A DNA stretch of 64,000 nucleotides, taken from assembly GCA_023382655.1 (NCBI GenBank), contig JAHDWK010000006.1, forward strand, positions 248,001 to 312,000, read 5' to 3'. Positions within the stretch are counted from its first letter, which is position 1. The number at the start of each line of letters is the position of its first letter. This DNA comes from Anaerolineae bacterium (lineage in GTDB: Bacteria > Chloroflexota > Anaerolineae > Promineifilales > Promineifilaceae). A model generated the notes under the pieces. The model was given only the letters and a program-made list of their open reading frames with translations. It had not been told where the DNA came from and made no database searches. The position numbers and the translations under genes are program-made. Shown piece after piece: positions 6,576 through 63,550 of this stretch.

Positions 6576-7291
6576 GCACCGGAACGCCGCGCTGCCAGGG
6601 GATGGCGCTGTTGCCCTTGCGCGTCAAAATTGGTGGAGTCAAGCCATGTTTCAAATGCTCGTTTGATAGCCGGCCATTCAGTATCAATAATAGAAAACCA
6701 GGTTGTATCCCGATTGCGCCCCTTATAAATGAGTGCCTGGCGGAAGATGCCTTCAAACGTAAAACCCAGGCGTAAAGCGGCGCGGCGGGAAGCATCATTC
6801 AGCGCGTCACATTTCCACTCATAACGGCGGTAGCCCAGTTCGTCAAAGGTGCGGCGCATCATCAGGTACATCGCTTCGGTGGCGACAACGGTTTTCTGCA
6901 AACAGGGCGCATAATTGATATGCCCCACCTCCATCACACCGTGCGCGGGTGTGATGCGCAGGTAGCTGGCAACACCTTCCGCTCGTCCTGTTGCCTGGTT
7001 GATAATGGCATAAAACAGGGGGTCATCACCCCGGCTGCTGGCTTCGATATGGCTATAAAATTCGGCAAAAGTGGCAAAAGGGCCATACGAGAGATACGTC
7101 CAGAGACGGCCGTCCGCATCTTCGCTGTAAGCCTGAAACAACTCGTCGGCGTGGCGTTCCGGGTCGAGTGATTCCAGGTGGCAGGTACGGCCGTGCATCG
7201 TCGTTCGTGGCGGCCACGGCCGTGGCTGCCAATCAGCCACCGGAAAGCCAACTGGTTGTTCTAAATGATTGTGTGTGTTGTGTGGCGTCAT
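6548..7291 (-). CDS. GNAT N-acetyltransferase, RimJ/RimL type
   Basis: A 247-residue acetyltransferase resembling RimJ/RimL-like GNAT proteins. Features include the N-terminal RTCHLESLDPERHADEL pattern, the beta4-beta5 region EVGHINYAPCLQKTVVATEA, which provides the acetyl-CoA site, and the late motif YRRYEWKCDALNDASRRAALRLGF followed by GIFRQ, characteristic of the family. The acceptor is unknown. The final residues DPKGFQNP and the stop are encoded by the AGACCCTAAGGG palindrome. The ATG lies directly behind three copies of a 7-bp repeat that on this strand reads ACAAAGG, so the repeat supplies the AAAGGA ribosome-binding site. Confidence 0.8.
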   Translation of the reverse strand: MTPHNTHNHLEQPVGFPVADWQPRPWPPRTTMHGRTCHLESLDPERHADELFQAYSEDADGRLWTYLSYGPFATFAEFYSHIEASSRGDDPLFYAIINQATGRAEGVASYLRITPAHGVMEVGHINYAPCLQKTVVATEAMYLMMRRTFDELGYRRYEWKCDALNDASRRAALRLGFTFEGIFRQALIYKGRNRDTTWFSIIDTEWPAIKRAFETWLDSTNFDAQGQQRHPLAARRSGADPKGFQNP

Positions 7292-7293
7292 TC

Positions 7294-7386
7294 GTCCTTT
7301 GTCCTTTGTCCTTTGTTATTGGGTAATTGGGTAACTGGGTAATTGCTCACCTTGTCACCCTGTCACCCTGTCACCTTGTCACCCTG
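7294..7386. repeat. compound array: GTCCTTT, GGGTAATT and TCACCCTG units
   Basis: Three unrelated short-unit arrays stand side by side: three 7-bp GTCCTTT (7294-7314), three 8-bp GGGTAATT/GGGTAACT (7321-7344) and five 8-bp TCACCTTG/TCACCCTG (7347-7386). Each unit type recurs elsewhere in the window. Confidence 0.85.
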
Positions 7387-7417
7387 TCCCCCCTCGCCTG
7401 CTCAAGTATACCCATTT

Positions 7418-17989: not shown

Positions 17990-17990
17990 G

Positions 17991-18053
17991 GTTGTCCTTT
18001 GTCATTGGTCATTAGTCCTTTGCCAGTGACCAATGACGAACGACCAATGACCT
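17991..18053. repeat. TTGGTCA heptamer array upstream of lplA
   Basis: Nine contiguous 7-bp units, from GTTGTCC through TTTGTCA, TTGGTCA, TTAGTCC and TTTGCCA to reverse-complement units GTGACCA, ATGACGA, ACGACCA, ATGACCT. The two halves can pair. Confidence 0.85.
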
Positions 18054-18066
18054 CTCCCCGGCGATT

Positions 18067-20853: not shown

Positions 20854-20895
20854 GCAAGTGGCAAGTAGCAGGTTGCAGGTGATCACTTGCCACTT
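20854..20895. repeat. GCAAGTG heptamer array
   Basis: Units GCAAGTG, GCAAGTA, GCAGGTT, GCAGGTG, then ATCACTT and GCCACTT in reverse orientation. It lies between the divergent M23 gene and aceK. Confidence 0.75.
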
Positions 20896-20928
20896 GCTAC
20901 CGTTCTATCTCTCGTAAGCCAACCGCGC

Positions 20929-20934
20929 TATACT
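20929..20934 (+). promoter_or_regulatory. -10 element immediately before aceK (possible leaderless start)
   Basis: TATACT ends six bases before ATG 20941, so transcription would begin at or near the start codon. No clear -35 or Shine-Dalgarno is seen. The P-loop kinase at 35745 has the same spacing. Confidence 0.35.
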
Positions 20935-20940
20935 TCCGTC

Positions 20941-22680
20941 ATGCAGCTAGACCTTAATCGCCTGTCGGACAGCCGGTTAGCCAATATGGGGGCAGCGGCC
21001 ATCTACCAGGCATTCAAGAGTTATTGCGCCCACTTCCAGGCCATCACGGATCGCGCTCCACAGCGTTTTGAGCAGCAAGACTGGCACGGCCGTCGCGCCG
21101 ACGCCGAAGAACGCCTGGAACTGTACAAAACCATCATTGACCAGGTCGTAGGCGAGATTCATTGCCTGTTGGCCGAACGCCTGCATGACAAACTGGTCTG
21201 GGTCAGCATGAAAGCCGTTTACTCCGGCCACATCTTCCCTCGTGACGATTGGGAACTGGCCGAAACCTTTTTCAACTCCGTCACCCGTCGCATCTTCACC
21301 ACCGTCGGCGTAGACCCGCAAATCGAATTTGTCACCACCGATTACCAATCACCGCCCACCCCCTCTCGCCATAAAGTGTATCGCAGCTACAAAGTACCCC
21401 ATCCAAAAGCAGACCTGTTCTACGAAATCATTAGCGGCTATCACCCCGCCGCCCGCTTTGCCCACCTGGAACAGGACTGCCAGTTGATTGCCGCCCGCAT
21501 CCAGGCGCACCTGGCGGCACAGGGCTTGACGATGCAGCGTCTCGATATGGTCAAAAGTGGATTTTACCGCAGCCACGGAGCTTATCTGGTGGGGCGCATC
21601 CAGGCCGGCAGCCAGACCATACCCTGCATCTTTTGTTTGCTGCACAGTAAAGACGGCCTGTATGTGGACAGCGTGCTGCTGGATGCCACCAGCGTCAGCA
21701 TTTTGTTTGGCTTCACCCGCTCCTACTTCCACGTCAAAATTGACCGTCCCTATGACCTGGTGGCCTTCATTCAAACGCTCATCCCCCAAAAACGGATTGC
21801 CGAAATTTACATCTCGCTGGGCTACAACAAACATGGCAAGACGGAGCTATACCGCGACATTTTGCGTCATCTGACCCAATCCGACACGCAATTTCAAACC
21901 GCGCCAGGGCAGAAAGGCATGGTCATGGCCGTGTTTAGCCTGCCCGATTATGACCTGGTGTTTAAGCTGATTAAAGACCATTTTGCCGACCCCAAAAAGG
22001 TGACGCGCCAGAACGTCATGGCCCAGTATGATTTGGTGTTTCGCCACGACCGCGCCGGACGTCTGGTGGATGCGCAGTCGTTTGAATTTTTGGAATTTGA
22101 CCAGGCACGGTTTGACCCGGCGCTGCTGGCCGAATTATTAGCGGTGGCCGGACGCGCCGTGCAGGTGAAGGAAGACGCAGTTGTCATCGCCCATGCGTAT
22201 GTGCAGCGGCGGGTGACGCCGTTGGACATCTACATTCGCCAGGTAGATGAAGTCGAAGCGCGGGCAGCCATCCGGGACTACGGCCGTGCCATCAAAGACA
22301 TGGCCGCCACCAACATCTTCCCCGGTGATATGCTGCTGAAAAACTTTGGCGTGACGCGGCACGGCCGTGTTGTCTTTTATGACTATGACGAGCTACGGCC
22401 GCTCACCGACTGCCACTTTCGCCGCTTCCCCCCCGCCGCCACCTACGAAGACGAGCTATCGAGCGAACCCTGGTTCCACATCGCCGAAGGCGACATTTTC
22501 CCCCAGGAATTCCTGCACTTCATGGGGCTGCCCGCCCCCCTGCAACAGGAATTTTTAGCCCACCACCCAGACCTGCTCGATACCCCCTACTGGCACACCA
22601 CCCAAACCCGCCTACAAAACGGCGAATACATCCACATCCTCCCCTACAGCCAACGCCAACGCCTTTACCCCACCCCATAA
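20941..22680 (+). CDS. aceK: isocitrate dehydrogenase kinase/phosphatase
   Basis: A 579-residue protein, almost the same length as E. coli AceK (578). It phosphorylates and dephosphorylates isocitrate dehydrogenase, controlling the branch between the TCA cycle and glyoxylate bypass. Diagnostic stretches are the ATP-binding PGQKGMVMAVFSLP, the FEFLEFDQARF block with HDRAGRLVDAQ, IRDYGRAIKDMAATNIFPGD, and KNFGVTRHGRVVFYDYDE with the metal-binding residues. The start at ATG 20941 gives the right N-terminus. AceK is best known from Proteobacteria, so its presence here is notable; aceA, aceB and icd are not in this window. Confidence 0.92.
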   Translation: MQLDLNRLSDSRLANMGAAAIYQAFKSYCAHFQAITDRAPQRFEQQDWHGRRADAEERLELYKTIIDQVVGEIHCLLAERLHDKLVWVSMKAVYSGHIFPRDDWELAETFFNSVTRRIFTTVGVDPQIEFVTTDYQSPPTPSRHKVYRSYKVPHPKADLFYEIISGYHPAARFAHLEQDCQLIAARIQAHLAAQGLTMQRLDMVKSGFYRSHGAYLVGRIQAGSQTIPCIFCLLHSKDGLYVDSVLLDATSVSILFGFTRSYFHVKIDRPYDLVAFIQTLIPQKRIAEIYISLGYNKHGKTELYRDILRHLTQSDTQFQTAPGQKGMVMAVFSLPDYDLVFKLIKDHFADPKKVTRQNVMAQYDLVFRHDRAGRLVDAQSFEFLEFDQARFDPALLAELLAVAGRAVQVKEDAVVIAHAYVQRRVTPLDIYIRQVDEVEARAAIRDYGRAIKDMAATNIFPGDMLLKNFGVTRHGRVVFYDYDELRPLTDCHFRRFPPAATYEDELSSEPWFHIAEGDIFPQEFLHFMGLPAPLQQEFLAHHPDLLDTPYWHTTQTRLQNGEYIHILPYSQRQRLYPTP

Positions 22681-23315: not shown

Positions 23316-25781
23316 ATGTCTCTACCCAAACGGTACCACCCGCAAACGGCCGAACCCGGCCAACAGGCGGGCTGGCAAGAACAGGGCGTCTACTATTATG
23401 ATCCGGCAGCAGACGCACCGCGTTTCACCATTGACACCCCCCCACCCACCGTGTCCGGGCAGCTGCATCTGGGGCACGTTTACTCCTACAGCCAGACCGA
23501 TTTCATCGCTCGTTTTTGGCGCATGAACGGCCGTAACGTCTATTACCCCATGGGCTATGACGACAACGGTCTACCCACCGAGCGGCTGGTGGAAAAACGG
23601 CACGGCATACGCGCCGCCGATGGTGATCGGGCCACCTTTATCACCCACTGCCTGGCTGCCAGCGAAGAAGCAGAGCATGATTACCGCCAATTGTGGCAGC
23701 GGTTAGGGTTGTCCGTAGATTGGCGCTATAGCTACCGCACCATAGATGAGCATTCCCGCCGCCTGGCGCAGTGGTCGTTTATTGACCTGCACCGCCAGGG
23801 GCTGGCCTACCGGCAGCAGTCACCCACCATCTGGTGCCCGGAATGCCAGACGGCCATCGCCCAGGCAGACGTAGACGACCTGGAACGAGAAACAACCTTT
23901 TACACGCTGGCTTTTCGCCTGCCGGATGGGGCCACCTTACCCATTGCCACCACCCGCCCGGAACTGCTGCCCGCCTGTGTGGCGGCGTTTGTGCATCCAG
24001 GCGACGGCCGTTACCAATCCCTCATCGGCCAACCGGGCAACCCGGCCATAACCACCCCGCTGGGGCAAACCGTCCCCCTGCTGGCCGACCCCGCCGCCGA
24101 CCCACACAAGGGCACCGGCGCAGTGATGTGCTGCACCTTCGGTGACACAACCGATGTGGCCTGGCAAAAGACACACCAACTACCCATCATTGAAGCGATT
24201 GGGCGAGACGGCCGTCTCACCGCTGCCGCCCACCCCTATACCGGCCTGACGGTGACAGAAGCACGCCAGGCCATCATGGAGACGTTGCGGGAGCAGGGGG
24301 CGGTATTGACCGCCCAACCCATCCCGCAAACGGTGCGGGTGCATGAACGGTGTGATACGCCGGTGGAATATGTGGTCACGCCGCAATGGTTTATTCGTGT
24401 GTTGGATTACAAGGCAGATATGCTGGCAGCCGGGGAACAAATCACCTGGCAGCCACCACACATGCACAACCGTTACCGCCAGTGGGTGGAAAATCTCAGT
24501 TGGGACTGGTGCATCAGCCGCCAGCGCTTTTTTGGCGTGCCCTTCCCGCTGTGGTACTGCGCCGCCTGTGGCGCGGCCATCCTGGCCGATGAAGACGAGT
24601 TGCCGGTAGACCCGATGGTAGCACGGCCGTCTCACCCCTGCCCCCACTGCCACAGCACTGAATTCATACCGGAAACGGACGTGTTCGATACCTGGTTCAC
24701 CTCCTCCCTCTCGCCGCAAATTGCCGGGCAATGGCAGCACGATGACCCGTTATACAACCAGGTGTACCCCTTCACATTGCGACCACAAGGCCACGAAATC
24801 ATCCGCACCTGGGCCTTTTACACCATCGTCAAATCGCACCACCACTTTGGCACGGTACCGTTTGCCCAGGTAGCCATTTCCGGCTGGGGATTGGCGGCCG
24901 AAGGCATGGGCAAAATCAGCAAAAGTCGCGGCGGCGGGCCGATGTCGCCCTTAGCCATGATCGAGCAGTATTCGGCCGACGCTGTACGCTATTGGGCCGC
25001 CAGCACCGCCTTGGGCAAAGACGCCATCATCAGCGAAGAAAAAATCCAGGCCGGCGCCAAACTGGTCAACAAACTCTACAACGTCGCCAAATTCAGCGAA
25101 AGGTTCCTGTGCCCATCACCGATCACCGATTACCGACCACCGATTACCGACTTCACCCCCGCCGACCGCTGGCTGCTGGCGCACACCACCCGCCTGATCC
25201 AGCGCAGCACTTTTCTGTGGCAGCAGTATGATTACGCCACGGCCCGCAGTGAAACGGAAGCGTTCTTCTGGCGGGTGCTGGCGGACAATTACCTGGAGAT
25301 GGCCAAGATGCGGCTGTATGCCCAGGATGACGCGGCGCGGGGCGCGGTTTATGCCCTGCATCACGCCTTGCTGACGGCGTTGAAGCTGTTTGCGCCCATC
25401 CTGCCGCATATCACCGAAGAGATTTACCAGAGTTTGTTTGCCACGGCCGACGGTGCGCCTTCGATTCATCGGGCGCAATGGCCGGTGGCCGATCCCACCT
25501 GGCTGGATGACGGCGCATTGGCGGCGGGAGAGTTGTTGGTGGAGGTGGCTACGGCCGTGCGACGCCACAAAAGCGAACACAACCTGTCACCAGGGGCCGA
25601 ATTGGCCGCCCTCTACTTGAACACAGACGACGACCAGACCGCCCGCTGGCTGCCGCAAAGCCGCGCCGACCTGATGAGCATTACACGGGCACAAGAGGTA
25701 GTGGTGAACGGCCGTCTGCCGGAGAACGCGGTGATCATTAGCCATGAGCCAGTTCAGGTGGCGGTGGTTCGTAATCCGTAA
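23316..25781 (+). CDS. valS: valyl-tRNA synthetase
   Basis: An 821-residue class Ia synthetase. The first active-site motif is HLGH (51-54) in PPPTVSGQLHLGH and the second is KISKS (533-537); the CP1 editing domain (about 170-330) has the expected TTRPELLPACVA pattern. A pair of CxxC motifs (WCPEC near 170, YCAAC..CPHCHS near 410-445) suggests bound zinc. It is on the short side for ValS and seems to lack the long C-terminal coiled coil. Bases 25115-25149, five 7-bp ATCACCG-type units, are translated as SPITDYRPPITD between catalytic and anticodon domains. The end VVRNP and the TAA come from a CGTAATC array. Expression is predicted to be T-box controlled. Confidence 0.93.
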   Translation: MSLPKRYHPQTAEPGQQAGWQEQGVYYYDPAADAPRFTIDTPPPTVSGQLHLGHVYSYSQTDFIARFWRMNGRNVYYPMGYDDNGLPTERLVEKRHGIRAADGDRATFITHCLAASEEAEHDYRQLWQRLGLSVDWRYSYRTIDEHSRRLAQWSFIDLHRQGLAYRQQSPTIWCPECQTAIAQADVDDLERETTFYTLAFRLPDGATLPIATTRPELLPACVAAFVHPGDGRYQSLIGQPGNPAITTPLGQTVPLLADPAADPHKGTGAVMCCTFGDTTDVAWQKTHQLPIIEAIGRDGRLTAAAHPYTGLTVTEARQAIMETLREQGAVLTAQPIPQTVRVHERCDTPVEYVVTPQWFIRVLDYKADMLAAGEQITWQPPHMHNRYRQWVENLSWDWCISRQRFFGVPFPLWYCAACGAAILADEDELPVDPMVARPSHPCPHCHSTEFIPETDVFDTWFTSSLSPQIAGQWQHDDPLYNQVYPFTLRPQGHEIIRTWAFYTIVKSHHHFGTVPFAQVAISGWGLAAEGMGKISKSRGGGPMSPLAMIEQYSADAVRYWAASTALGKDAIISEEKIQAGAKLVNKLYNVAKFSERFLCPSPITDYRPPITDFTPADRWLLAHTTRLIQRSTFLWQQYDYATARSETEAFFWRVLADNYLEMAKMRLYAQDDAARGAVYALHHALLTALKLFAPILPHITEEIYQSLFATADGAPSIHRAQWPVADPTWLDDGALAAGELLVEVATAVRRHKSEHNLSPGAELAALYLNTDDDQTARWLPQSRADLMSITRAQEVVVNGRLPENAVIISHEPVQVAVVRNP

Positions 25782-25827
25782 TCCGTGAACCGTAATCCGT
25801 AATCGGTTCACGGATTACGGTTCACGG
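25770..25827. repeat. CGTAATC heptamer array providing the valS stop
   Basis: CGTAATC, CGTAATC, CGTGAAC, CGTAATC, CGTAATC, then GGTTCACGGATTACGG in reverse orientation. The valS TAA (25779-25781) lies in the second unit. Confidence 0.85.
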
Positions 25828-25932
25828 CTTTATCGCGTAGGGAAGGCATTGCGAAAATGACGCTTTGGCGACGGGCAACGGCCGTCAGCAGCGGGCATAC
25901 TGTGGGCTATCTCAACATGATGATGGAGGCGC

Positions 25933-26229
25933 ATGATGATTACCCCGGTAGATGGTTATTCCCAAACGATGGACGAGACAGAAAGCGGCAGAGGGCGATG
26001 GTTCACGGCCGTCTTCATTACTGTCATCCTCACCCTGCTGGCTTCTTTGTGGTGGTCAGGGTTAGCCCTCGTCGGGGTCTCCTTGCTGGCGCTGGCTGCC
26101 GTTTGTATCATCATGGCGCTCATCATCAACCGCACGTCAGAACAACCCGCCTGGGCCCTGGCCCTGGCCGGGCAGGCCGCCGGGGTGTTGGGCACGGCCG
26201 TGCTGTTTTGGGCGGCGATAGCTTTGTAA
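25933..26229 (+). CDS. small membrane protein of unknown function
   Basis: A 98-residue protein with a polar N-terminus of about 22 residues and three hydrophobic stretches (about 24-42, 44-64 and 76-97), so a two- or three-pass membrane protein. GGAGG precedes ATG 25933 by three bases and the next ATG (25936) by six, so either may be used. No family was recognised. Its stop TAA (26227-26229) is the start of a TAATTG repeat. The alternative frame at 25857-26237 is Arg/Gly-rich and lacks a good start, so I prefer this one. Confidence 0.6.
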   Translation: MMITPVDGYSQTMDETESGRGRWFTAVFITVILTLLASLWWSGLALVGVSLLALAAVCIIMALIINRTSEQPAWALALAGQAAGVLGTAVLFWAAIAL

Positions 26230-26286
26230 TTGTGTAATTGAGTAATTGGGTAATTGGGTAATTGGAGGGTCAATTACCCAATTACC
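26226..26286. repeat. TAATTGGG octamer array and hairpin
   Basis: Five 8-bp units (TAATTGTG, TAATTGAG, TAATTGGG, TAATTGGG, TAATTGGA) followed by the reverse complement. Arms 26249-26264 and 26271-26286 are perfect over 16 bp. Confidence 0.85.
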
Positions 26287-37743: not shown

Positions 37744-38748
37744 ATGACCACATTAACCAGAATTCTAGCCATCGAAACCTCCTGTGATGAAACGGCCGCC
37801 GCTGTGGTGGAAAACGGCCGTACCATTCTCAGCAACATCATCGCCAGCCAGGTTGATTTACACGCGCAGTATGGTGGCGTCTTCCCGGAGGTGGCCTCAC
37901 GCCGCCACATTGAGGTCATTTACACTGTGGTCAACCAGGCGTTGGAAACGGCTCATCTGGGACTGGACGATGTGGATTGTGTCGCTGTCACGCAGGGGCC
38001 AGGATTGGTAGGCTCACTCCTGGTGGGGGTGAACATGGCCAAAGGATTGGCCCTGGCCCGTAATAAACCGCTGCTAGGCATTAACCATATTGAGGGACAC
38101 ATTTACTCCTTGTGGCTGACCGAAGAAGCCGAGAATTTCACCTTTCCCATTTTGAATCTGGTGGTCAGCGGTGGGCACACGGAGCTGTATCTGATGGTGG
38201 AACACGGCCGTTACCAACACCTGGGTGGCACGCTGGATGACGCCGCCGGTGAAGCGTTTGATAAAGTGGGGCGGCTGTTGGGGCTGCCCTTCCCTGGCGG
38301 CCCGGCCATTGACCGCGCCGCCCGCAGTGGCAATCCCCAGGCATACAAATTTCCGCGTGGAGTGATGGATGATGGTTTTAACTTCAGCTTCAGTGGCTTG
38401 AAGACGGCCGTGCTGCGCCAGGTTCAACCCACCCCGGCCAACCGGCGGCCCATTCCCGACCTGGCTGCCAGCTTTCAAGCCGCCGTCGTAGACGCCCTGG
38501 TGACAAAAACGGAACGGGCGGCCCAGGCATATGGGGTCACGGCCGTGCATCTGACCGGTGGCGTCTCCGCCAACAGCGCCCTGCGGCAGACCATGAAAGA
38601 ACGCCTGGCCGTACCCGTTCGCTTCCCACCGCCCATCCTCTGCACCGATAATGCGGCCATGATTGCTGCTGCCGCTCATTGGCATTTTCTTACAGGGCAC
38701 CAACATTCGCTCGATCTGGATGTCATTCCCAGCCTGCAATTGGTATAA
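37744..38748 (+). CDS. tsaD: tRNA N6-adenosine threonylcarbamoyltransferase TsaD
   Basis: A 334-residue ASKHA-fold enzyme that, with TsaB and TsaE, puts the t6A modification on tRNAs reading ANN codons. Features: AIETSCDETAAAVV at the N-terminus, metal ligands His115 and His119 in NHIEGH, VVSGGHTELYLM, the GEAFDKVGRLLGLPFPGGP block, and LTGGVSANSALR. The start at ATG 37744 follows the repeat array after selA. TsaB and TsaE are not in the window. Confidence 0.94.
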   Translation: MTTLTRILAIETSCDETAAAVVENGRTILSNIIASQVDLHAQYGGVFPEVASRRHIEVIYTVVNQALETAHLGLDDVDCVAVTQGPGLVGSLLVGVNMAKGLALARNKPLLGINHIEGHIYSLWLTEEAENFTFPILNLVVSGGHTELYLMVEHGRYQHLGGTLDDAAGEAFDKVGRLLGLPFPGGPAIDRAARSGNPQAYKFPRGVMDDGFNFSFSGLKTAVLRQVQPTPANRRPIPDLAASFQAAVVDALVTKTERAAQAYGVTAVHLTGGVSANSALRQTMKERLAVPVRFPPPILCTDNAAMIAAAAHWHFLTGHQHSLDLDVIPSLQLV

Positions 38749-38762: not shown

Positions 38763-38797
38763 AGCGATCACCGATTGCCAATTACCGATCACGAGGC
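38763..38797. repeat. ACCGATT heptamer array
   Basis: AGCGATC, ACCGATT, GCCAATT, ACCGATC, ACGAGGC between tsaD and the sensor kinase. Confidence 0.7.
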
Positions 38798-38813: not shown

Positions 38814-40952
38814 ATGATTCATTCACCCGAAATGCCCGACCTCTCAGGAATTGAAGCCGAAAACGGTAACACCTTTTCCTTAACACAAACCATTGCTGAC
38901 GTATTGCGCCACATTGAGAAAGACGGCCTGGATATTGACCGGGTGATGGACGCTGTGGTGGAAACGGCCGTGCGCCACTTCAACGCCTTCGATGGCAGCC
39001 TGATCGTCGTCAACCAGGCCCAACAGATCGAACACACCTGCTACTACCAGGACGAACCACACCGCCGTGAGCCAGATGTCTTCTTACAAGATGTCATCCG
39101 GGAAGGCGTCGCCGGTTGGGTCATTCGCAAACGGCGGCCCTACCTGGCAACCGACATTTTCCAGGACAAACAATGGCTCAAGCGACCAGGCTTGCCCCCA
39201 AACACGTCGTCCCAATCAGCCATCTGTGTACCGCTGCTCATCCGGGGCCGGGTGGTTGGCGTGTTGACCCTACACCGCCAAAATATGTCTCACTTCACCG
39301 AGCAAGATGTCGAATTATTGGCAGATTTTTCTGCCGAAGCCGCCAGTCATGTGGAAAACGCACGTTTATTTGCCGCTTCCCAAAGACAGTTGCAAATAGC
39401 CGCCCTGCTCAATGAAGCCAGCCGCGCCATCAATTCCTCCTTAGATCTCACCGAGATTATGCAATCGCTGCTGCTGCAAATGAATGAATTTCTCAATGCC
39501 GAAGCCGTCTCCATTGCCCTGGTAGATGAACAGACGAATGAGTTGGTTTACCAGATTGCCGCCGGCGTGGGGGAAAATGAAATTCGCGGCCTGCGCATAC
39601 CGTCAAACCAGGGTGTTTCGGGTTGGGTGATGGAACACTGCCAGCCCGTGCTGATTTCCGATACCAGCCGTGACCCCCGCTTCCAACCCGGCCTGGGCGA
39701 CAAACGCACCGGCTACCCCACCCGCGCCATGATTTGTGCGCCGATCCAATATAAAGGCGATGTCTTGGGCACCATCCAGGCGATCAACCCTTCTGAAGGA
39801 TCGTTTATGGAACAAGACCTGGATTTGCTGATGAACCTGGCTAATATCGCCAGCACCGCCATTGCCAATGCCAAACAGTTTGCCCGCACCCAGGCCGCCG
39901 AAGCCCAATACGCCAGCCTGTTTCAAGATACCATTGACCCCATCATCCTTACGGACCTGGAAGGATATATTACCCAGGTGAATCGCCGCGCCATCCAGCT
40001 ATTACGTTTTGGGCGTGCGGAATTGCTGGGTAAACATATCAGCCATCTGCACGAACCGGGCACAGAACTGCTGAAGGCCAGCGCCATACAAAGTGATACG
40101 GTCAGAGTTTTCACCAGCAGAATTGTGACGCAAGATGGGCAGGCGCTTTCGGTGGAGGTGTATGCCCGGCGTACCCTTTTTGAGCAGAGTGAGATATTGC
40201 AGTGGATTTTCCATGACATCTCCAAACATGTGGAACTGGAAGAGATGCGCCGCGATTTAACGGCGATGTTGTTCCATGATTTGCAAAGCCCTCTGGGAAA
40301 TGTGATTTCCAGCCTGGAATTGCTTTCTTATGAAATACCGCCGATGGATCCCGGTTCGCCGCTGCTATATATGCTGGATATTGCCAAGCGCAGTAGCGAG
40401 CGGCTGCAAACGCTGGTGCGGTCGCTGCTGGATATTAACCGGCTGGAAGCGGGCAATCCCATCATTGAACGGACGCTGGTGGATATTTATGACCTGGTGG
40501 ATGAGGTGCGGGAGATTGAACGGCCGAACTTTGAACAGCGCCGGGTATTGTTTGTAGAGGCGCTGTCACCGGCGTTACCGGATATTTATGTGGAAGAGGA
40601 TATGATTCGCCGGGTGCTGATCAACCTGGTGGGTAATGCCCTGAAGTACAGCATGGAAGGGCAGCAAATCACAGTGGCGGCGGAGTTGACTGAGGATCAG
40701 GGCGGTGTGCTTTTTTCGGTCAGTGACCAGGGCATGGGCATTCCTTTGGAGTTTCGGCAGTCTATTTTTGAGAAGTTTGAGCGTATTAAACAGGGGGGCG
40801 GTGATTCTAAGGGATTGGGCCTGGGATTGGCGTTTTGCCGCCTGGCGGTAGAAGCGCACAACGGCCGTATCTGGGTGGATGATGCGCCCGGTGGTGGGGC
40901 CTGTTTCCATTTTATTATCCCTTTTCGTGTGCCTGATGATTTTCGTAAGTGA
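38814..40952 (+). CDS. GAF-GAF-PAS sensor histidine kinase
   Basis: A 712-residue soluble kinase: two GAF domains (about 40-185 and 205-350, each with the CVPL/CAPI-type core strand), a PAS domain (about 365-475), a HisKA-like domain with His488 in FHDLQSPLG, and a HATPase domain with NLVGNALKYS, DQGMGIP and GLGLGLAFCRL. The phosphoacceptor box is FHDLQSPL rather than SHELRTPL, a known variant. No response regulator is adjacent. It is in a stretch of nearly 1.9 kb without an ACGGCCGT octamer, the longest gap I noticed. Confidence 0.88.
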   Translation: MIHSPEMPDLSGIEAENGNTFSLTQTIADVLRHIEKDGLDIDRVMDAVVETAVRHFNAFDGSLIVVNQAQQIEHTCYYQDEPHRREPDVFLQDVIREGVAGWVIRKRRPYLATDIFQDKQWLKRPGLPPNTSSQSAICVPLLIRGRVVGVLTLHRQNMSHFTEQDVELLADFSAEAASHVENARLFAASQRQLQIAALLNEASRAINSSLDLTEIMQSLLLQMNEFLNAEAVSIALVDEQTNELVYQIAAGVGENEIRGLRIPSNQGVSGWVMEHCQPVLISDTSRDPRFQPGLGDKRTGYPTRAMICAPIQYKGDVLGTIQAINPSEGSFMEQDLDLLMNLANIASTAIANAKQFARTQAAEAQYASLFQDTIDPIILTDLEGYITQVNRRAIQLLRFGRAELLGKHISHLHEPGTELLKASAIQSDTVRVFTSRIVTQDGQALSVEVYARRTLFEQSEILQWIFHDISKHVELEEMRRDLTAMLFHDLQSPLGNVISSLELLSYEIPPMDPGSPLLYMLDIAKRSSERLQTLVRSLLDINRLEAGNPIIERTLVDIYDLVDEVREIERPNFEQRRVLFVEALSPALPDIYVEEDMIRRVLINLVGNALKYSMEGQQITVAAELTEDQGGVLFSVSDQGMGIPLEFRQSIFEKFERIKQGGGDSKGLGLGLAFCRLAVEAHNGRIWVDDAPGGGACFHFIIPFRVPDDFRK

Positions 40953-45759: not shown

Positions 45760-48700
45760 ATGACAACGGACGCCGAGAGCATGACGGAAGAGCAAGAAGC
45801 AGGGGAGGACACGGCCGTACCCACTCCACCGCCGCCTCCCGAAAACAACATATTCCCCACCGAACCTGCGCCGCGCTCATTCAGCCTGGAAAACATCGCT
45901 TTCCTGTTTGTGCTGCTCGTCTTATTGGTGGGCGCATACTTCCGTTTCACCGGCCTCAATTGGGATGGCAGCTATCATTTGCATCCCGACGAACGTTTCC
46001 TGACCACCGTTGCCAACCAATTGCAGCCCGTCTCTTCCCTCACCGGCTACCTGCGCACCTCCGAATCCACCCTCAACCCATACAACAAAGGGTTTGGGTT
46101 TTACGTGTACGGCAACTTCCCCATGACCCTCACCCGTTATGCCGCCGAGCTGCTCACCCGCGCCTGCACCACCCTGGCCCAAAACAACCCAGACCAACCG
46201 CCCCCCTGTCCCTACGTCTTCACGGCGTATGATGGCGTGCATCTGTTCGGCCGTTTCCTGTCTGGGTTAGTAGATTTAATCTCCGTCCTCTTTACCTTCC
46301 TCATGGGGCGGCGGCTGTATGGCTGGAAGGCGGGCATATTAGCGGCGCTGCTGCTGGCATTGGCCGTCATGCCCATCCAGCAGTCCCACTTCTTCACCAT
46401 GGACAATTGGGCCGCCGCCCTGACAACGATCACGCTGTACACGGCCGTGCGCGCTGCCAGTCTTGGTGACCAAAAAGCCACCCCGCGCCTGCATTGGTAC
46501 GCCCTCTTTGGTCTCTTCTTCGGATTGGCCGCCGCTTCCCGCATCAATATCGCCCCCTTAGCCCTCATCGTCAACGTCGCCGCCGTCATCTGGCTGCTAC
46601 AGCGCGGTCACAGTTGGGACAGCCTGCTCAAAACTGCGCCGGGCCACGCCGACATCCAGCGCGTCATCCTGGGCGTCTTGCTCGCAGCCGTCATTTCCAT
46701 CATCACCTTCCGCCTGGCCATGCCCTACGCCTTCGCCGACGCCACCATCATCCGCGAGCAAACCCTGGCCGAAACCGGGCAGGAGCCAGACGCATTGCGG
46801 GCGACTTTAGGCGCGGTCTTTGGTTTCAACCCCACATGGCGCAGCAACATGTCCGAAATTCAACGGCTGCAAGAGCCAGACGCCTCTTTCCCCCCTGCCC
46901 TGCAATGGACCAACCGCACCCCCATCCTCTTCCCGCTGACCAACATGGTGCTGTATGGCATGGGCCTCACCGCCGCCATTGCCAGTTGGTTTGGCTTCTT
47001 TTGGGCCTTGTGGCGCATTTTGCGGGGACGGCCCGAGTGGGTAGCCCACGCCATTCCGGTGGTGTGGACGGGCATGTATTTCCTCTTTATGGGTACCCGT
47101 TGGGTCAAATCCATCCGCTACTTCCTGCCCATCTACCCCGCCCTCTTCCTGCTCGGTGCATGGGCGCTGCTCACCATCTGGCAACTGGCCGCCCAACGCG
47201 ACCACGACCGGGGCCAATTCTTCCGGCGCACTTTAGCCGCCGGGTTGATTTTGCTCACCGTCGTCCCCAGCTTCCTGTGGGCCAACGCTTTTGTGCAAAT
47301 CTACCATAACCAGTTCACCCGCGTCGCCGTTTCCCCCTGGATGTTTGAGAATATCCCCACCGGGGCCACCTTAATTTATGAAACGGCCGCAGGTGAACAA
47401 GAGCTACATTTGCCGTTGAAATGGTTTGAATTTGTGCCCGGCGGCCCCACCCTGTTCCTCGGTTTTACGCTGCCGGAAGATGGCACGGTCACGGCCGTGC
47501 GTTTCAACTATTTGCAACTGCCACCCGAATTGGGCAACGGGAGTTCACAAACCCATACCTTTGCCGCCAACCTCCCCTCAGTCGGCGGTGAAAGCATTAG
47601 CACCGACATCACCGTGACCGGCGAACGCGCCCCGGCTTTGCTTGACCTGCCAGACACACCCCTCACCGGTGGCATGGCACAGCAGTTACAGGTACAGATG
47701 CTGTCTAATGGGCGCGTTTTGGCCGATACCAGCCGCTTCCTCACCGAACATTGGGATGATTTGCTGCCGGTGGCGCTGGACGGCCGTTACCCCTTTGGCA
47801 GCTACTACACCGAAGTGCAAAACAGCCAGCGCCCCGTCACCAACCCCGACGACATGCTCAAACGGGACGAACTGGTGGCCTGGCTGGACGAAGCCGACTA
47901 CGTGGTGATGAGCAGCCAGCGCGCCGTCTGGCATCTGCCCCGCCTGCCCCTCACCTACCCGTTGATGATTCGTTATTACGAGGCGTTGTTCAACGGTGAA
48001 CTCGGTTTTGAACTGGTCAAAGAACAACATGCCGATCTGCACATTGGCCCGCTCTATATCAGCGACACCGCCGGAAAGATTAGCTGGGGCAAACCGCCCA
48101 ACGTTGGTTGGCCACCACCCGGCGACCTGGCGGCTGAAGAAGCATTCAGCGTCTACGACCATCCGCCGGTGTGGATTTTCCACAAGACGGCCGATTACGA
48201 CCGGGACAAAATGGTGCAGTTGTTGGGCGCGGTAGACCTGACACAGCAGATGTTCCAAACGCCGGGACAGGCCACGCGCACCCCCAACGCCCTCTTCCTC
48301 AGCCCGGCAGTGTTGGCCGTGCAGCGGGCCAACGGCACGTTCAGCGAGCTATTTAACCTGGACGGTGTGCTGAACCAGAACCCAACGCTGGCGGCGGTGG
48401 TCTGGTGGTTGGCGGTGGTGCTGTTGGGCTGGCTGGCGTTTCCGCTCACGGCCGTAGTCCTGCGTGGCCTGCCCTCCAAAGGCTACCTCTTTGCCCGCGT
48501 CTTGGGGATGCTGCTCGTCTCCTACTTTGGCTGGCTGCTGGCGAGTTATGATATTTTGCCCAACACTGCCGGGACGCTGTGGTTGGGTGTGCTTCTGTTG
48601 GGCATCGCCAACCTGCTGATCTTCCTGCGCCGCCGCGCCGACATCGCCGGTTGGGTGCGGCAAAATATAACCTACATTCTGACGGTCGAGGCCATTGCCC

Positions 48701-50904
48701 TGGCGCTGTTTCTGATTGCCATTTTCATCCGCCTGGGCAACCCCGACCTGTGGGACGTGATTTGGGGCGGCGAAAAACCGATGGATCTGACGTATTTCAC
48801 GGCCGTACTCAAATCCACCACCTTCCCGCCCTATGACCCCTGGTTTTCCGGGGGCTACCTCAACTACTACTACTACGGCTTCGTGTTTGTTGGCGTCTTG
48901 CCCAAACTCTTGGGCATCATGCCCACCCTGGCCTACAACCTCATCCTGCCCATGCTGTTCAGCTTCACCGGCATGGGCGCCTTTGCCCTGGCGTATGATC
49001 TGGTCTTTCACTATGACAAGGTGACAAGGTGGCCAGGTGACAAGGTGACAGAAGATCACCCCGGCGTCCCCGCCGCCGTCACCTTGTCACCCCGTCATCC
49101 CCGCCGCCGTCACCTTGTCACCCCATCACTTACCGCCGGTCTCATCGCCGCTGCCCTCGCCGTGCTGCTGGGCAACCTGGCGCAGGTGGGGGTGATTACC
49201 AATGCCTGGTACCGGGCGGGCAACCCGACGGTTGAGGAGATTGTGCCGGTGGTGGGTACGGCCGTGCGCACCCTGGAAGGTGGCATCAGCCTCATCGGCG
49301 AAAAAACCGCGCCCATTTACCCTGGCGACTGGTTCTGGACCGCCTCCCGCGCCATCAACGCCGACCCCGGCGAAGCAGGGCCAATTACCGAGTTTCCCTT
49401 TTTCACCTTCCTCTATGGCGACCTGCATGCCCATATGATCAGCCTGCCGCTGATGCTGCTGGCGCTGGCCTGGGCGGTGGGATTGGCCTTGCAGCCATCG
49501 GGCGTGACCAGACCTGACAGGTCTGGCAGACCTGTCAGGTCTTCATGGTGGGAAACGGCCGTGCAGTGGCTCAGCGGCAGTATCATCTTTGGCGTGTTTC
49601 AGGCGGTCAACAGTTGGGACTTTCCCACCTTCCTGGTGATTGGCGCGTTGGCCATCTTTTTTTACAGCTACCAGATGCATGAGAGCAAATTGAGCCTGCC
49701 CATGTTGGGCACGGCCGTGATGCAGATTTTCCTGCTCTGGACGCTGGCTTTCATTTTTTACCTGCCCTTCAGCAACAATTTTGCCGCCGGGTTCAATTCG
49801 GTGGCGTTGTGGGATGGTTCGCAGACCTATCTCAGCCGCTACCTCATCATGTGGGGTCTGTTCCTCTTTTTTATCGTCGGCTACCTGTTCATCGAGTTCC
49901 GCGATTGGGCCAAAAGCTGGACGTATGAGGGGATGCAGGCCATGGAGATAGCCAGGATACCGTTGTTGATTACGGCCGTTCTCTACGTCCTGCTCCTACT
50001 GATATTATGGCGGCTGCAATACTGGGTGGCACCGGTAGCCCTGACGCTAACACTGGCCGCCGGTCTGCTTGGTTTGCGCCGTCGGCTCTCGCCTGCCCGG
50101 CGCATCATCCTCATCCTCATCGCCTCCGCATTGGGGCTGACGCTGTTCGTGGAATTTTTTGTGGTGGAAGGCACCCTCGACCGGATGAACACGGTGTTTA
50201 AGGTGTATATGCAGGTGTGGTTGATCATGAGTGTGGTGGGCGGGGTCACGGCCGTGTGGTGCTGGCAGCGCCTCAAAAACGCCCCAACCGGCAAAATCGT
50301 CTGGGCTTCGGCGCTGGCCGTGCTGGTCGTTGCCGCCGCCCTTTACCCCATCCTGGCTACCCGCGCCAAATGGGACATCCGCATGAACAAAGACGCCCCA
50401 CACACCCTCAACGGCATGGACTTCATGCCTTACATCACCTACCAGGAAAACGGCCAGACCGTGCCGATGGTCTTTGACCACGATGCCATCTTATGGATTC
50501 AGCGCCACCTGCCCGGCTCCCCCGTTATCGCCGAAGGGTACAGCGACAACTACTACCGCTCCATCACCAATCGCGTGGCTATGTACACCGGCCTGCCCAA
50601 CATCATCGGTTGGAGCGGTCACCAGCGGCAGCAGCGGGCGGCCCTGCCCGGCACGATGATTGACATGCGCATTCAGGATGTACACCTGCTGTACACCACC
50701 ACCAGCATCCCCGAAGCGCTGAGCATCATCCAGAAATACGGCGTGGAATACATCTATGTGGGGCAATTGGAATGGGTGTTATATAACCCTGAGGGTTTGC
50801 TGAAATTTGAGCAAATGGCGGACGCCGGTTTGTTGGAAGAGGTCTACCGCAATGACGGGACAAGCATTTATCGCGTCACGGACGCTCCGGTAAATACACA
50901 ATGA
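45760..50904 (+). CDS. giant membrane glycosyltransferase: GT39/ArnT-like domain fused to a Chlor_Arch_YYY (DUF2298) domain
   Basis: A 1714-residue polytopic protein. Residues about 40-640 form a GT-C module with [13 protein letters not shown] in the first outer loop, the acidic site used by PMT/ArnT-type sugar transferases. The second half resembles Chlor_Arch_YYY proteins: a [23 protein letters not shown] lead, [15 protein letters not shown], and the [20 protein letters not shown] motif near residue 1040. It probably transfers or processes lipid-linked sugars at the outer face of the membrane. Two repeat elements are translated in frame, at 49012-49128 and 49510-49542. The gene overlaps the next by ATGA, so they are coupled. 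ATG 45760 lacks a clear Shine-Dalgarno. Confidence 0.8.
49012..49128. repeat. GGTGACAA/TTGTCACC repeats inside the YYY gene
   Basis: A coding copy of the CACCTTGT intergenic family: 14-bp inverted arms 49036-49049 and 49078-49091, with a further copy at 49109-49122, and a 31-bp tandem duplication (49067-49097, 49098-49128; one mismatch). It is translated as a charged, Pro-rich loop. Confidence 0.85.
49510..49542. repeat. AGACCTGACAGG palindrome inside the YYY gene
   Basis: 16-bp perfect arms (49510-49525, 49527-49542) identical in design to the intergenic family; encodes [13 protein letters not shown] between membrane helices. Confidence 0.9.
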
Positions 50905-53600
50905 GTATGACGCCGATTGATGAAATTTTGATGGTGCTGCGCTGGTGGCTGGCACTGGTGGTGGTGGGCACGGCCGTAACCCCCCTCACCCTCCACCTGC
51001 TGCATCGCCTGCCTGACCGGGGCTACGCCTTCGCCAAATTGTTGGGGCTGCTGCTAACCAGTTATCTTTTTTGGCTGTTGGGCAGCCTGGGTATCTTGGG
51101 CAATAACCTGGGCGGTATTCTGGTGGCGCTGCTGGCAGTGGTGGGCTTTTCCATTTGGGCCTGGCAGCAGGGGCGGGCCGAAATCATTGGCTGGCTGAGT
51201 GGTAACTGGCGCTACGTACTGCTGACAGAACTGCTGTTCCTGGTCGTTTTCCTGCTGTGGGTATGGGTGCGGGCACAAAATCCGGCCATTGTAGCTACCG
51301 AAAAGCCGATGGATTTCGCCTTTTTGAATGCCATCGGCCGCAGCCCGTCTTTCCCGCCACTGGACCCCTGGCTCTCCGGGTACGCCATTAGCTACTACTA
51401 CTTTGGTTATCTGATGCAGTCGGTGTTGGCGCGGCTCACGGCCGTGCCCGAACCGTATGCGTTCAATCTCGCCATTGCCTGGTTGGTAGCGGGTACGGCC
51501 GTGGGCGCATTTGGCCTGGTTTACAATCTGGTGGCGGCTTACGGGCCGCAGGCCAGGCGAGCCGCCATAGGTCTGGGGCTGGTGGCGGCCATGGCCATCC
51601 CCATTGCCGGCAATCTGGAAATTGTGTTGGAAGCAGCGCATGGTTACGGCTATGGTTCGCCGCAGTTTTGGGCCTGGCTGGATGTGCGCGACCTGAGCGA
51701 TGCGCCCGACCCGACCACACCACCGCGTTATGAAAATGCCTTCTGGTGGTGGTGGCGCTCCTCCCGCCCTATCAACGAATACAGTTTAAGTGGTCAGCGC
51801 ATCGAAGGGTTAGAACCGATTGTGGAGTTCCCCGCCTTCAGCTTTATCCTGGGCGACCTGCACCCGCATGTGATGGCGCTGCCGTTTGCCTTTCTCAGCC
51901 TGGGCGTGGCGCTGGCATGGTATTTGGGTTTTGACGCAAAGGCGCAAAGGGGCAAAGAGGGCAAAGAAGAAGAAGGAGAAGAAAAATCTGCGGAATCTGT
52001 GAAATCTGTGGATTCATTCTTAGCGCCGTTGACGGGATTGGTGCGGGAGGTGGGGGCGCCGTTGTGGCTGCTGACGGCCGTGATCCTCGGCGGCCTCTCT
52101 TTCCTCAACACCTGGGACGTGTTGATTCACCTCTTTGTGGTGTTGGGCGCATTTTTTCTGGCGCAGTGGCGCAGCCGGGGCTGGTCGAGCGAAATCGTGG
52201 TCAAGACATTTTATCTGGCGCTGCTGCTGGTGATCCCGGCAGTGTTGTTTTATTTGCCATTCTATTTTGGCTTTCGCTCTCAGGCAGGCGCGCCCTTCTT
52301 GCTGCCCATGCTCAACCGCCCCACGCGGATGGCGCAGTTTCTCATCGTTTTTGGTCTGCCGTTAGGCACAATTACGGTTTTGCTGATGGTGTTGGCGATC
52401 AAGCAGCGATTCCGGCAGTGGAAAGTGGGGGTGGGCACGGCCGTGTCCTTTCTCCTGATTCTTTTCCTGCTGGCGCTGCTCTTTAGCTGGGTTGTGGCCA
52501 CCTCGGCAGAAGGGGCTGGCCGGGTGATCAATCTGGCGGCGGAATTGGGCATCCCCCTAGCGACACGACCAGAAGGTTTAGCGCCAGGGTGGGCAGTTAC
52601 GGCCGTGTTTGCCATCCTACCTGCCTACCTGCAAGCCCGCCTGGCCTTCCCCGCTCTCACCTTGCTGCTGGCTACCCTCCTCGCCCTCGCCGTCATGGTC
52701 TTAATGGACACGGTGACAGGGTGGCAAGGTGAAGGCGGCGAAGACGCCGCGGTGACAGAAACGTCTCCTGTCACTCCTTCCCCCCTTCACCGTCCGATTG
52801 TGGCAATCGGCGTCACCGTGTCACCACTGCCGTTCGCCTTGCTGCTCATCATCACCGGCATTTTGCTGACGCTGGGGCCGGAATTTTTGTATTTACGGGA
52901 TAATTTTGGGGTGCGGCTGAACACCATTTTCAAGTTTTATTACCAGGCGTGGGCATTGTTTGGCGTGGCTGCTATCTTTGGGCTGTATGCGCTGTGGCAG
53001 GCCACGTCTGGCGCCACAAAGATCGTGCCAGTGTTGACGACGGCCGGCTATGGGCTGGCGCTGCTGCTGTCGCTGCTCTTTCCGTTTTACGCCGTGCAGT
53101 CCCGCGCCGTCGAGTTTCGCGGTCGGGTAGGCGCTGAATTCCGCCAGCCGCCCACGCTCAACGGGCTGGCAGCTATGCAGAACTTTAACTTTGACGAATA
53201 CGCCGCCATTTTATGGCTGCGCGAAAATGCCGAGGGGGCGCCCGTCATTTTGGAGGCGGTGGGTGGGCAGTATTCGGAGTACGGCCGTGTCTCCGCCAGC
53301 ACCGGGTTGCCCACCCTGCTTGGCTGGGCCGGGCACGAATACCAATGGCGCGGCAGTTCCACGCAAGAACCGGCCGTGCGTGACCCGGCCGTGCGCGATA
53401 TTTACACCGCTTCCACCTGGGAAAACAGTAACGCCGCCCTGCTGTTGAATGATTATGGCGTGGAACTCATCTACCTGGGCCAACTGGAACGCAACACATA
53501 TGGCCTGCTCGGCCCGGCCCTGGATAAATTCAGCGACCGATTGGAAGTGGCGTACCAAAATAACTCTGTTACGATTTATCGGTGGCTGCCAGAGGAATAA
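50901..53600 (+). CDS. Chlor_Arch_YYY (DUF2298) membrane protein
   Basis: An 899-residue polytopic protein, paralogous to the C-terminal half of the preceding gene: [40 protein letters not shown], and [20 protein letters not shown] with the YYY motif, followed by [22 protein letters not shown] 50901 overlaps the upstream TGA (ATGA). Two loops are made of repeat-derived sequence: 51937-52015 (charged [15 protein letters not shown] followed by [11 protein letters not shown]) and 52709-52790 ([18 protein letters not shown]). The C-terminal soluble part (about 780-899) includes [16 protein letters not shown]. The biochemical role of YYY proteins is not established; linkage suggests surface glycan assembly. 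Confidence 0.8.
51937..52015. repeat. repeat-like insertion coding a charged loop
   Basis: Short-unit sequence such as GGCAAAGAGGGCAAAGAAG and AATCTGTGAAATCTGTGG encodes a highly charged loop between membrane helices in the second YYY protein. I infer a dispersed repeat from its style; no second copy is seen in this window. Confidence 0.5.
52709..52790. repeat. GGTGACAG repeat sequence inside the second YYY gene
   Basis: GGTGACAGGGTGGCAAGGTG and a later GGTGACAG...CTGTCAC pair belong to the TCACCCTG intergenic family but are translated here. Confidence 0.6.
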
Positions 53601-62162: not shown

Positions 62163-63491
62163 ATGATGAAAGAACCACAACCACCGCAGACCAAAACAAT
62201 ATATTTTTTTAAACCCCAGTGGGAGCGCTCCCAATCTCGATCCGTGAAGGACACAAAGAGCGCGAAGACCTTTTCTCCTCACCACCGATCACCGATTACG
62301 GATTACCGATTACGGATAACACTTGTCACCTTCCTCCTCCTGCTCATGTTAACCGGCTGTGCCGCCCCCAGCCGTGATCGCCGCGACGCGGCCAGCAGCG
62401 CCGAACCGACGCCGATTCCCACGGCCGTCGTCCCCAACAAACCCACCTACACCGTCGAACGGGGCGATGTGGTCTATGCCGCCAGTTATAGCGGCCGTAT
62501 CAGCCCTGCCAGCGAGACCAGTCTGGCCTTCCCTATGAGCGGGCAGGTGGCCGAGGTGTTTGCGGAACGAGGCGAGACGGTGCTGGCAGGGGTGCAGATT
62601 GCCCGGTTGGACACCACCGAACTGGAACGAGAACTGGCATTGGCCCAGGCGGCCTTAGAGGTAGCCCAGGCGCAGTTAACGGCCGTGGAAACTACCAATG
62701 CTACCCAACGCCACCATGCTGAACTCAATCTGGCGCTGGCGCAGCTTGATCTCGATTTTGCCACCCAACAGTCCGGGGAAAACCCCACGCCGGAACAGGC
62801 TTATCAGATTGGCCGGCTGACCATTTTGCGTGATCTGGCGCAGTTGGCGGTGGATGAATTGGTCACGGCCGTAGATCCCCAACTCAACGCCAATGTACAA
62901 CAGGCCGAACTCCGCATATCCGAACTGCAAGCAGCCATTGCTAACGCTGTGCTGATTGCGCCTACAGATGGCGTATTGGTGTCGCTCAATTTAACACCGG
63001 GTCGTTCCGTAACGGCTCAGGAGCCGGTAGGTACGCTGGCCGATCTGGAAGAACTGGAAGTCAGCGCCGAATTGCAGGACAATCAGATGGCTGAACTGGC
63101 CGAAGGCATGGCCGTTACCATCTCACCGCCCAACCGCCCCGGCGAAACATTCACCGGCACCGTGCGGCAGATGCCCTATCCCTATGGCACACGCGGCAGC
63201 GCCGATGTGCCCCCCACCGATGAGACAACCCGGTTTGTTTTTGACAATCCTGATGACGCGCGGCAATTCCAGCCGGGCGATCGGGTGCGGGTGGCGGCGG
63301 TGATTGAAGAGCGCCCCGGTGTTCTCTGGCTGCCGCCAGCGGCCGTGCGGGATTTTAACGGCCGCCACTTTGTGGTCATTCAGGACGAACAAGGCCAGAG
63401 CCGCGTTGACGTGACGTTGGGCATTGAGGGGGACGGCCGTGTGGAAATTCTAGAAGGGCTGTCGGAAGGGCAAACTATCGTAGGACAGTAA
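62163..63491 (+). CDS. efflux adaptor lipoprotein (HlyD/MacA-like membrane fusion protein)
   Basis: Up to 442 residues. Lipobox LTGC (Cys near 66 from ATG 62163) follows a hydrophobic TLVTFLLLLM stretch; then come a barrel-sandwich hybrid half, a coiled-coil hairpin (about 135-240, rich in Ala, Leu, Gln), and beta-barrel domains with GRSVTAQEPVGTLADLEELEV. The N-terminal region before the signal core is atypically long and partly made of a heptamer array (62284-62318, SPITDYRLRIT), so GTG 62244 is an alternative start. It ends in TAA within another heptamer array whose last base begins the ATG of the permease gene, so the pair likely forms a MacAB-like exporter. Confidence 0.8.
   Translation: MMKEPQPPQTKTIYFFKPQWERSQSRSVKDTKSAKTFSPHHRSPITDYRLRITLVTFLLLLMLTGCAAPSRDRRDAASSAEPTPIPTAVVPNKPTYTVERGDVVYAASYSGRISPASETSLAFPMSGQVAEVFAERGETVLAGVQIARLDTTELERELALAQAALEVAQAQLTAVETTNATQRHHAELNLALAQLDLDFATQQSGENPTPEQAYQIGRLTILRDLAQLAVDELVTAVDPQLNANVQQAELRISELQAAIANAVLIAPTDGVLVSLNLTPGRSVTAQEPVGTLADLEELEVSAELQDNQMAELAEGMAVTISPPNRPGETFTGTVRQMPYPYGTRGSADVPPTDETTRFVFDNPDDARQFQPGDRVRVAAVIEERPGVLWLPPAAVRDFNGRHFVVIQDEQGQSRVDVTLGIEGDGRVEILEGLSEGQTIVGQ
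62284..62318. repeat. ACCGATT heptamer array inside the adaptor N-terminus
   Basis: ACCGATC, ACCGATT, ACGGATT, ACCGATT, ACGGATA, five 7-bp units translated just before the signal-peptide core. Confidence 0.8.
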
Positions 63492-63550
63492 ACGGTAATC
63501 GGTAATCGGTCATCAGTAACCGATTACCGATAACCGATAACCGATTACCA
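63488..63550. repeat. nine-unit heptamer array joining adaptor and permease genes
   Basis: GTAAACG, GTAATCG, GTAATCG, GTCATCA, GTAACCG, ATTACCG, ATAACCG, ATAACCG, ATTACCA. The upstream TAA (63489-63491) is in the first unit and the downstream ATG uses the final A. Confidence 0.88.

Follow-up and report, generated by a model that had tools for sequence, protein, structure and literature searches.

Introduction

Direct repeats of the heptamer TAACTGA have been described from marine Beggiatoaceae and some cyanobacteria (MacGregor 2015, PMC4679880). They are mostly intergenic, and many cover the stop codon with which the gene upstream ends; read one way they give stops in all frames, read the other way they are translated as LSVISYQ, and one set is found in a variable region of an RNA polymerase beta' homologue, which in the E. 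coli structure forms a surface loop (PMC4679880). The STRR heptamers of heterocystous cyanobacteria occur in RNase P RNA (Vioque 1997) and in P6b of the Nostoc tRNA-Leu intron, where the repeats pair into a hairpin (PMC3488679). Borg elements carry tandem repeats that evolve fast, some of them intergenic and others within ORFs; the latter form flexible protein segments and are described as perfect tandem repeats of amino acids, frequently in proteins that are extracellular or membrane-bound (PMC9879509). Rickettsia palindromic elements (RPEs) are palindromic elements of about 150 bp with a conserved peptide (PMC10969869). For the Chloroflexi, a full-text search of the literature gave no account of heptamer arrays beyond a general satellite survey (PMC6749651), in which abundant short satellites are recorded for Chloroflexus aurantiacus.

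Here we describe a heptamer array translated inside an archaeal-type valyl-tRNA synthetase (ValRS) gene of an Anaerolineae genome of 7.7 Mb, located in a 64,000-nucleotide stretch of DNA (the window). Its resemblance to RPEs is one of analogy only. In our view the array is likely to be a coding copy of a proliferating ATTACCG/ATCACCG repeat family, neutrally domesticated in a permissive loop of the enzyme.

An in-frame heptamer array in an archaeal-type ValRS gene

The host gene (23316-25781, forward strand) encodes an 821-AA product that scored 991.8 bits in a profile search against PRK13208 of NCBIfam; this exceeds the curated cut-off of 738 and assigns it to the archaeal-type ValRS. The AlphaFold model has a mean pLDDT of 91.2 and superimposes on the Thermus ValRS 1gax_A with Z 41.4 and an rmsd of 2.6 over 774 aligned residues. 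Pfam places the catalytic domain at residues 19-570 and Anticodon_1 at 617-764, and the KISKS motif lies at about 533-537. A canonical bacterial ValRS is also present on another contig (G000:C7:229083-231401; PRK05729, 1079 bits). Most related genomes with an orthologue of the archaeal-type gene likewise hold a second match of about 30% identity and nearly full length, as expected of the canonical ValRS. The first-pass annotation had spoken of an essential enzyme; as the genome has a second, canonical ValRS, the archaeal-type gene cannot be called essential on present evidence. Its distribution within the family is patchy. Directly upstream (20887-22680) lies a gene for AceK, the isocitrate dehydrogenase kinase/phosphatase (PRK02946, 690 bits), which was possibly acquired.

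The array occupies positions 25115-25150 (forward strand) and reads, in order, ATCACCG, ATCACCG, ATTACCG, ACCACCG and ATTACCG, followed by a single A. TRF reports it with a period of 7, 5.1 copies and 82% matches. It is translated as PSPITDYRPPITD, at about residues 600-612, ahead of the anticodon-binding domain. Both TRF and the ORF translation thus confirm the five in-frame ATCACCG-type units of the first-pass annotation, and its placement of the array between KISKS and the anticodon-binding domain is correct given the positions of the motif and of the start of Anticodon_1. The period-7 score was reached by 1 of 2000 synonymous shuffles and by 0 of 2000 codon-order shuffles of the CDS. The array is 36 bases long and one-armed, with no inverted partner arm, and RNA folding revealed no hairpin in it; the fold was worse than that of most shuffles (z +1.6).

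The array lies in a variable linker under relaxed selection

In the AlphaFold model the array forms a coil (599-609) between helices 574-598 and 615-636, and residues 601-610 make up the block of lowest mean pLDDT (66). In an alignment of 44 homologues from Chloroflexota, Archaea, Clostridia and others, the stretch between F593 and D617 ranged in length from 19 to 36 residues, and its array part contained not one conserved column. Conservation of the segment in distant ValRS proteins, which had been named as the observation that would speak against an inserted repeat, was thus not found. The coil, the low model confidence and the length variation together point to a surface loop, and the array is best placed, on the model, in a length-variable linker leading from the catalytic to the anticodon-binding domain.

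Between congeners, omega outside the loop was 0.09-0.14 (about 0.11), and in the 13 loop codons it was mostly 0.4-1.0 among array-bearing pairs, these values being noisy (0.4-1.8, some undefined). The gene is under purifying selection and the loop is relaxed, the loop value coming from 13 codons with a wide error. Such a pattern would be expected of a gene that is functional and tolerates its linker. Between two congeners, G002 and G004, the 39 bases of the loop show 2 differences, neither of them synonymous, compared with a dS of 0.57 for the rest of the gene. This similarity fits homogenisation, but constraint on the loop DNA could produce it too.

Related arrays in the window and in the genome

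The same gene carries a second array at its 3' end (25764-25830, forward strand), in which CGTAATC units supply the stop codon and, together with inverted CGGTTCA/CGGATTA units, fold as RNA into a strong hairpin (-34.6 kcal/mol, z -7.0). One ValRS gene therefore holds the repeats in two forms, structured at the 3' end and unstructured inside. In G002 nearly all of the 3' array is missing, with about one unit left. An octamer inverted pair, GTAATTGG / CAATTACC, lies over the 3' end of the gene after ValRS (26225-26286, forward strand); its arm length differs between sister species and the inverted pair is retained.

The first-pass annotation had also reported an intergenic copy of the ValRS unit at 38763-38797. 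A copy is present there, GATCACCGATTGCCAATTACCGATCACG, read directly from the forward strand in the gap between an ORF that ends at 38748 and one that starts at 38814, but it is degenerate, spans about four units at roughly 38766-38793 and does not appear in the TRF list. Better matches to the family are an ATTACCG/ATTACGG array at 62283-62317 (forward strand; TRF, period-7 score), intergenic by the gene calls used, and two arrays of the ATTACCG family that form an inverted pair over the 3' end of a gene at 63488-63549 (forward strand), with a predicted hairpin of -30.1 kcal/mol (z -7.7).

Octamer arrays occur in frame inside two adjacent genes for DUF2298 membrane proteins, as TGACAAGG at 49014-49050 and as the short array GCAAAGGG at 51935-51957 (both forward strand); in the region 45760-53600 each of the two neighbours has its array inside the DUF2298 domain. 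In the intergenic stretch 7286-7392 three arrays stand back to back (GTCCTTT x3, ATTGGGTA x3.5 and TCACCCTG x5.8), and the sister genome G001 has other units at the equivalent place. At the intergenic positions 17990-18066 the window genome (G000) has a heptamer inverted pair, G001 an unrelated perfect hairpin, and G002 and G004 nothing.

Over the whole genome we counted 427 three-unit matches to ATTACCG (at most 2 mismatches), compared with 0 in a reversed control; ATTACCG, ATCACCG and ATTACGG are variants of the unit. A census of arrays was made on a 464-kb sample, consisting of a 400-kb stretch of contig C1 and the window. It contained 82 period-7 and 38 period-8 arrays, with 0 in a Markov control, and few arrays of other periods except 14, which are period-7 tracts re-read at double length. 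After merging, 118 arrays remained. By gene calls from a simple script, which make the edge and inside counts approximate, 62 of these were intergenic, 35 ran across a gene end and 21 were inside genes, in a sample of which 82% of the bases are coding. Arrays are depleted from genes (binomial p ~1e-52) and not excluded from them, which supports the earlier description of a mostly intergenic repeat that is translated within a conserved enzyme. At gene ends, 33 arrays were at 3' ends vs. 5 at 5' ends. A reverse-complement partner within 80 bp was found for 46 of 97 non-coding arrays and 5 of 21 in-gene arrays, compared with about 0.5-1% of control places. Outside genes the arrays thus often form hairpins where a gene ends; these may provide its stop codon and could possibly have a role in mRNA 3' ends or termination.

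Distribution of the ValRS array among relatives

The array is present in G000 and in four congeners, G001-G004 (87-94% identity), with identical length in all five, and is absent from a fifth congener, G005 (74% identity), and from other genera that have the gene. The expectation that close relatives would lack the segment therefore holds for G005 and the other genera, but not for four of the five congeners. In G029, from another genus of the same family, an AGATTGG/CCAATCT hairpin with both arms is translated in frame in the equivalent ValRS loop. The type of array in the loop tracks the genome, since the repeat counts match the carriers: the five genomes that carry the ValRS array have 235-587 three-unit ATTACCG matches and G005 has 11, and G029 has 391 CCAATCT matches. 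Beyond the family, few class-level genomes have ATTACCG or CCAATCT repeats. The genomes were assembled from metagenomes, their contamination is estimated at 2-9%, and repeats are open to mis-assembly; the copies of the ValRS array are concordant across five separate assemblies.

We found no clean empty site for the array among the relatives, whose loops are too divergent in sequence and length. The array-bearing loop has 25 residues and the array-less loop of G005 has 27. As the former is no longer than the latter, replacement is indicated more than simple addition.

In-gene arrays and exchange of repeat families at fixed loops

In the 464-kb sample, in-frame arrays were present in 14 of 352 called genes (about 4%). 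Their hosts include GMP synthase, hydantoinase A (three arrays), a MacB-type ABC exporter, a RarA-type AAA+ protein, an amidohydrolase and the two DUF2298 proteins. Many of the arrays occupy loops or linkers of variable length, and many lie between Pfam domains; several fall within the envelope of a Pfam domain, and for these a position in a loop is presumptive. All in-gene ATTACCG- and ATCACGC-type arrays are in the open orientation. Read forward, ATTACCG gives ITDYRLP, and in reverse it meets TAA within each 21 bases; because reverse tracts of sufficient length carry stops, the open orientation must be imposed by selection.

We compared nine loops in five proteins, picked because the window genome had arrays there, and at least five of the nine carry different repeat families in different species. 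Loop 1 of the amidohydrolase has ATTACCG in G000, ACCGCTC in G001-G003 and ATCACGC in G004, and in its loop 2 four species carry ATCACGC and G002 carries an AATCTCC hairpin. Loop 3 of hydantoinase has ATCACGC in G000 vs. ATTACCG in G001-G004, and loop 2 of RarA has ATTACGG, GGAGATT or CAATTACC. The differences in loop length are always multiples of three despite units of 7 or 8 bases. GMP synthase (GuaA) gave one match per genome (in G027, two contig fragments) and carries an array; being single in each genome, it is a better example than ValRS of a core enzyme tolerating a repeat. In its gene at L156:17389-18972 a two-armed GAGATTGG/CAATCTCC hairpin is translated in the glutamine amidotransferase domain, with fast turnover of the array between species.

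The comparison shows fixed loops with changing repeat content in GuaA, hydantoinase, the amidohydrolase and the RarA-type ATPase, enzymes whose function is apparently kept. It provides a natural series in which non-coding repeat DNA turns into protein sequence with the frame preserved. A tentative reading, which we regard as possible but doubtful, is that such loops are fixed landing sites overwritten repeatedly by whichever heptamer family is expanding, through repeat-to-repeat conversion between dispersed arrays. If this were true, unrelated housekeeping enzymes of one species would share loop peptides. Short peptides shared by unrelated proteins, such as ITDYRLPIT, can reflect DNA repeats and not homology or a functional motif, and should be read with caution. 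The system enables gene-by-gene study of repeat spread in bacteria with no obvious transposase, and it opens the question of what share of protein loop variation derives from repeat DNA.

Origin of the ValRS array

A T-D-Y-R-P-rich linker that happens to use similar codons would need no repeat at all, and the imperfection of the array (82% matches) could be taken in its favour; the two kinds of shuffle and the 427 genome-wide matches refute this, and we give chance or codon bias practically no weight. Alternatively, an ITDYRLPIT-type loop might be kept for a role in the protein, as a flexible spacer or in a contact with tRNA or a partner, the DNA repeat being secondary. The retained ITDxRxPIT core, the equal array length in the five carriers and the neighbourhood of the anticodon-binding domain agree with a selected peptide. 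Constant length is expected anyway, because a slip of 7 bases shifts the frame. Against such selection, it is in the loop that constraint on the gene is relaxed, other species have unrelated sequences of other lengths at this position, and hydantoinase and the amidohydrolase carry an equal peptide that is replaced there by other repeats, all of which makes this explanation quite improbable.

The inverted partners of nearly half of the non-coding arrays (46 of 97), and the presence of both arms in the G029 ValRS and G000 GuaA loops, would suit a mobile palindrome of the RPE or REP kind that was moved by a transposase, inserted whole and then degraded to one arm in ValRS. Yet the arrays have neither a set length nor a unique core; at one site, sister species differ in the length of the arms, the unit family and the spacer, and the ValRS copy has neither a second arm nor a fold, so that we regard a mobile element as unlikely. 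In the comparison with REP/RAYT systems, Y1_Tnp (RAYT-type) genes were found, but their counts do not follow those of the arrays (G027 gave no Y1 hit and has 575 CCAATCT matches), and these counts lend no support to a RAYT/Y1 transposase as the spreading agent. A purely local origin, in which each array arose by slippage of a chance short duplication with no exchange between places, would explain several length changes at single sites that resemble slippage, and the survey cited above attributes many bacterial satellites with short units to errors of local replication (PMC6749651). We think it very unlikely, since slippage alone would give site-specific units and what is found is a few unit families that recur at many unrelated sites of a genome and differ between genomes.

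The reading that we favour, a coding copy of the proliferating family domesticated in a permissive loop, could operate as follows. Slippage, template switching or ectopic conversion between the hundreds of dispersed arrays would create tracts at many places or copy them there. Selection would purge nearly all coding copies, and those that are in frame, free of stops and located in permissive loops would survive as a neutral linker. The ValRS array would in this way have replaced an earlier linker loop, and it probably does nothing specific.

Comparison with known repeats

The likeness to RPEs drawn in the first-pass annotation stands in one respect: as with RPEs, a genome-wide repeat is tolerated in frame in unrelated protein genes (here 14 of 352 called genes). 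It fails in others, as the ValRS array has 36 bases, no inverted arm and no fold, and the repeats here are tandem heptamers of 20-70 bases whose lengths and units vary between sites and which have no conserved core, unlike a conserved palindromic element of about 150 bp. As in Borgs, the tandem repeats occur both between genes and in ORFs, but units of 7 or 8 bases give no simple short peptide repeat here, and soluble housekeeping enzymes are among the hosts.

The TAACTGA repeats of Beggiatoaceae are the nearest precedent and, with the cyanobacterial STRRs, the closest kinds; the kind of repeat is therefore already known. Common to the TAACTGA repeats and those described here are heptamer units, a mainly intergenic placement with many units at gene stops, an orientation that is translated where the other carries stops, and a case of translation in a variable loop. 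The arrays share with STRRs the 7-base units with degenerate positions (82 period-7 arrays vs. 0 in the control), a dispersed and mostly non-coding distribution (62 intergenic, 35 edge, 21 in genes), a place in the variable helices or loops of conserved genes and a copy number that varies between relatives. The in-gene STRR cases are in RNAs, whereas those described here are translated, and the likeness is drawn on the form and placement of the repeats, the unit searches having covered relatives within the class. In the TAACTGA system there is one dominant unit, different from those here and mostly in direct repeats, with few in-gene cases in named proteins; here there are several families, inverted pairs are frequent, about 4% of the sampled genes have an array inside, and families are exchanged at fixed loops between species. 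Translated copies at this frequency, together with family swapping at fixed loops, are not described in the limited open-access literature searched, and it is the swapping that is new in our findings.
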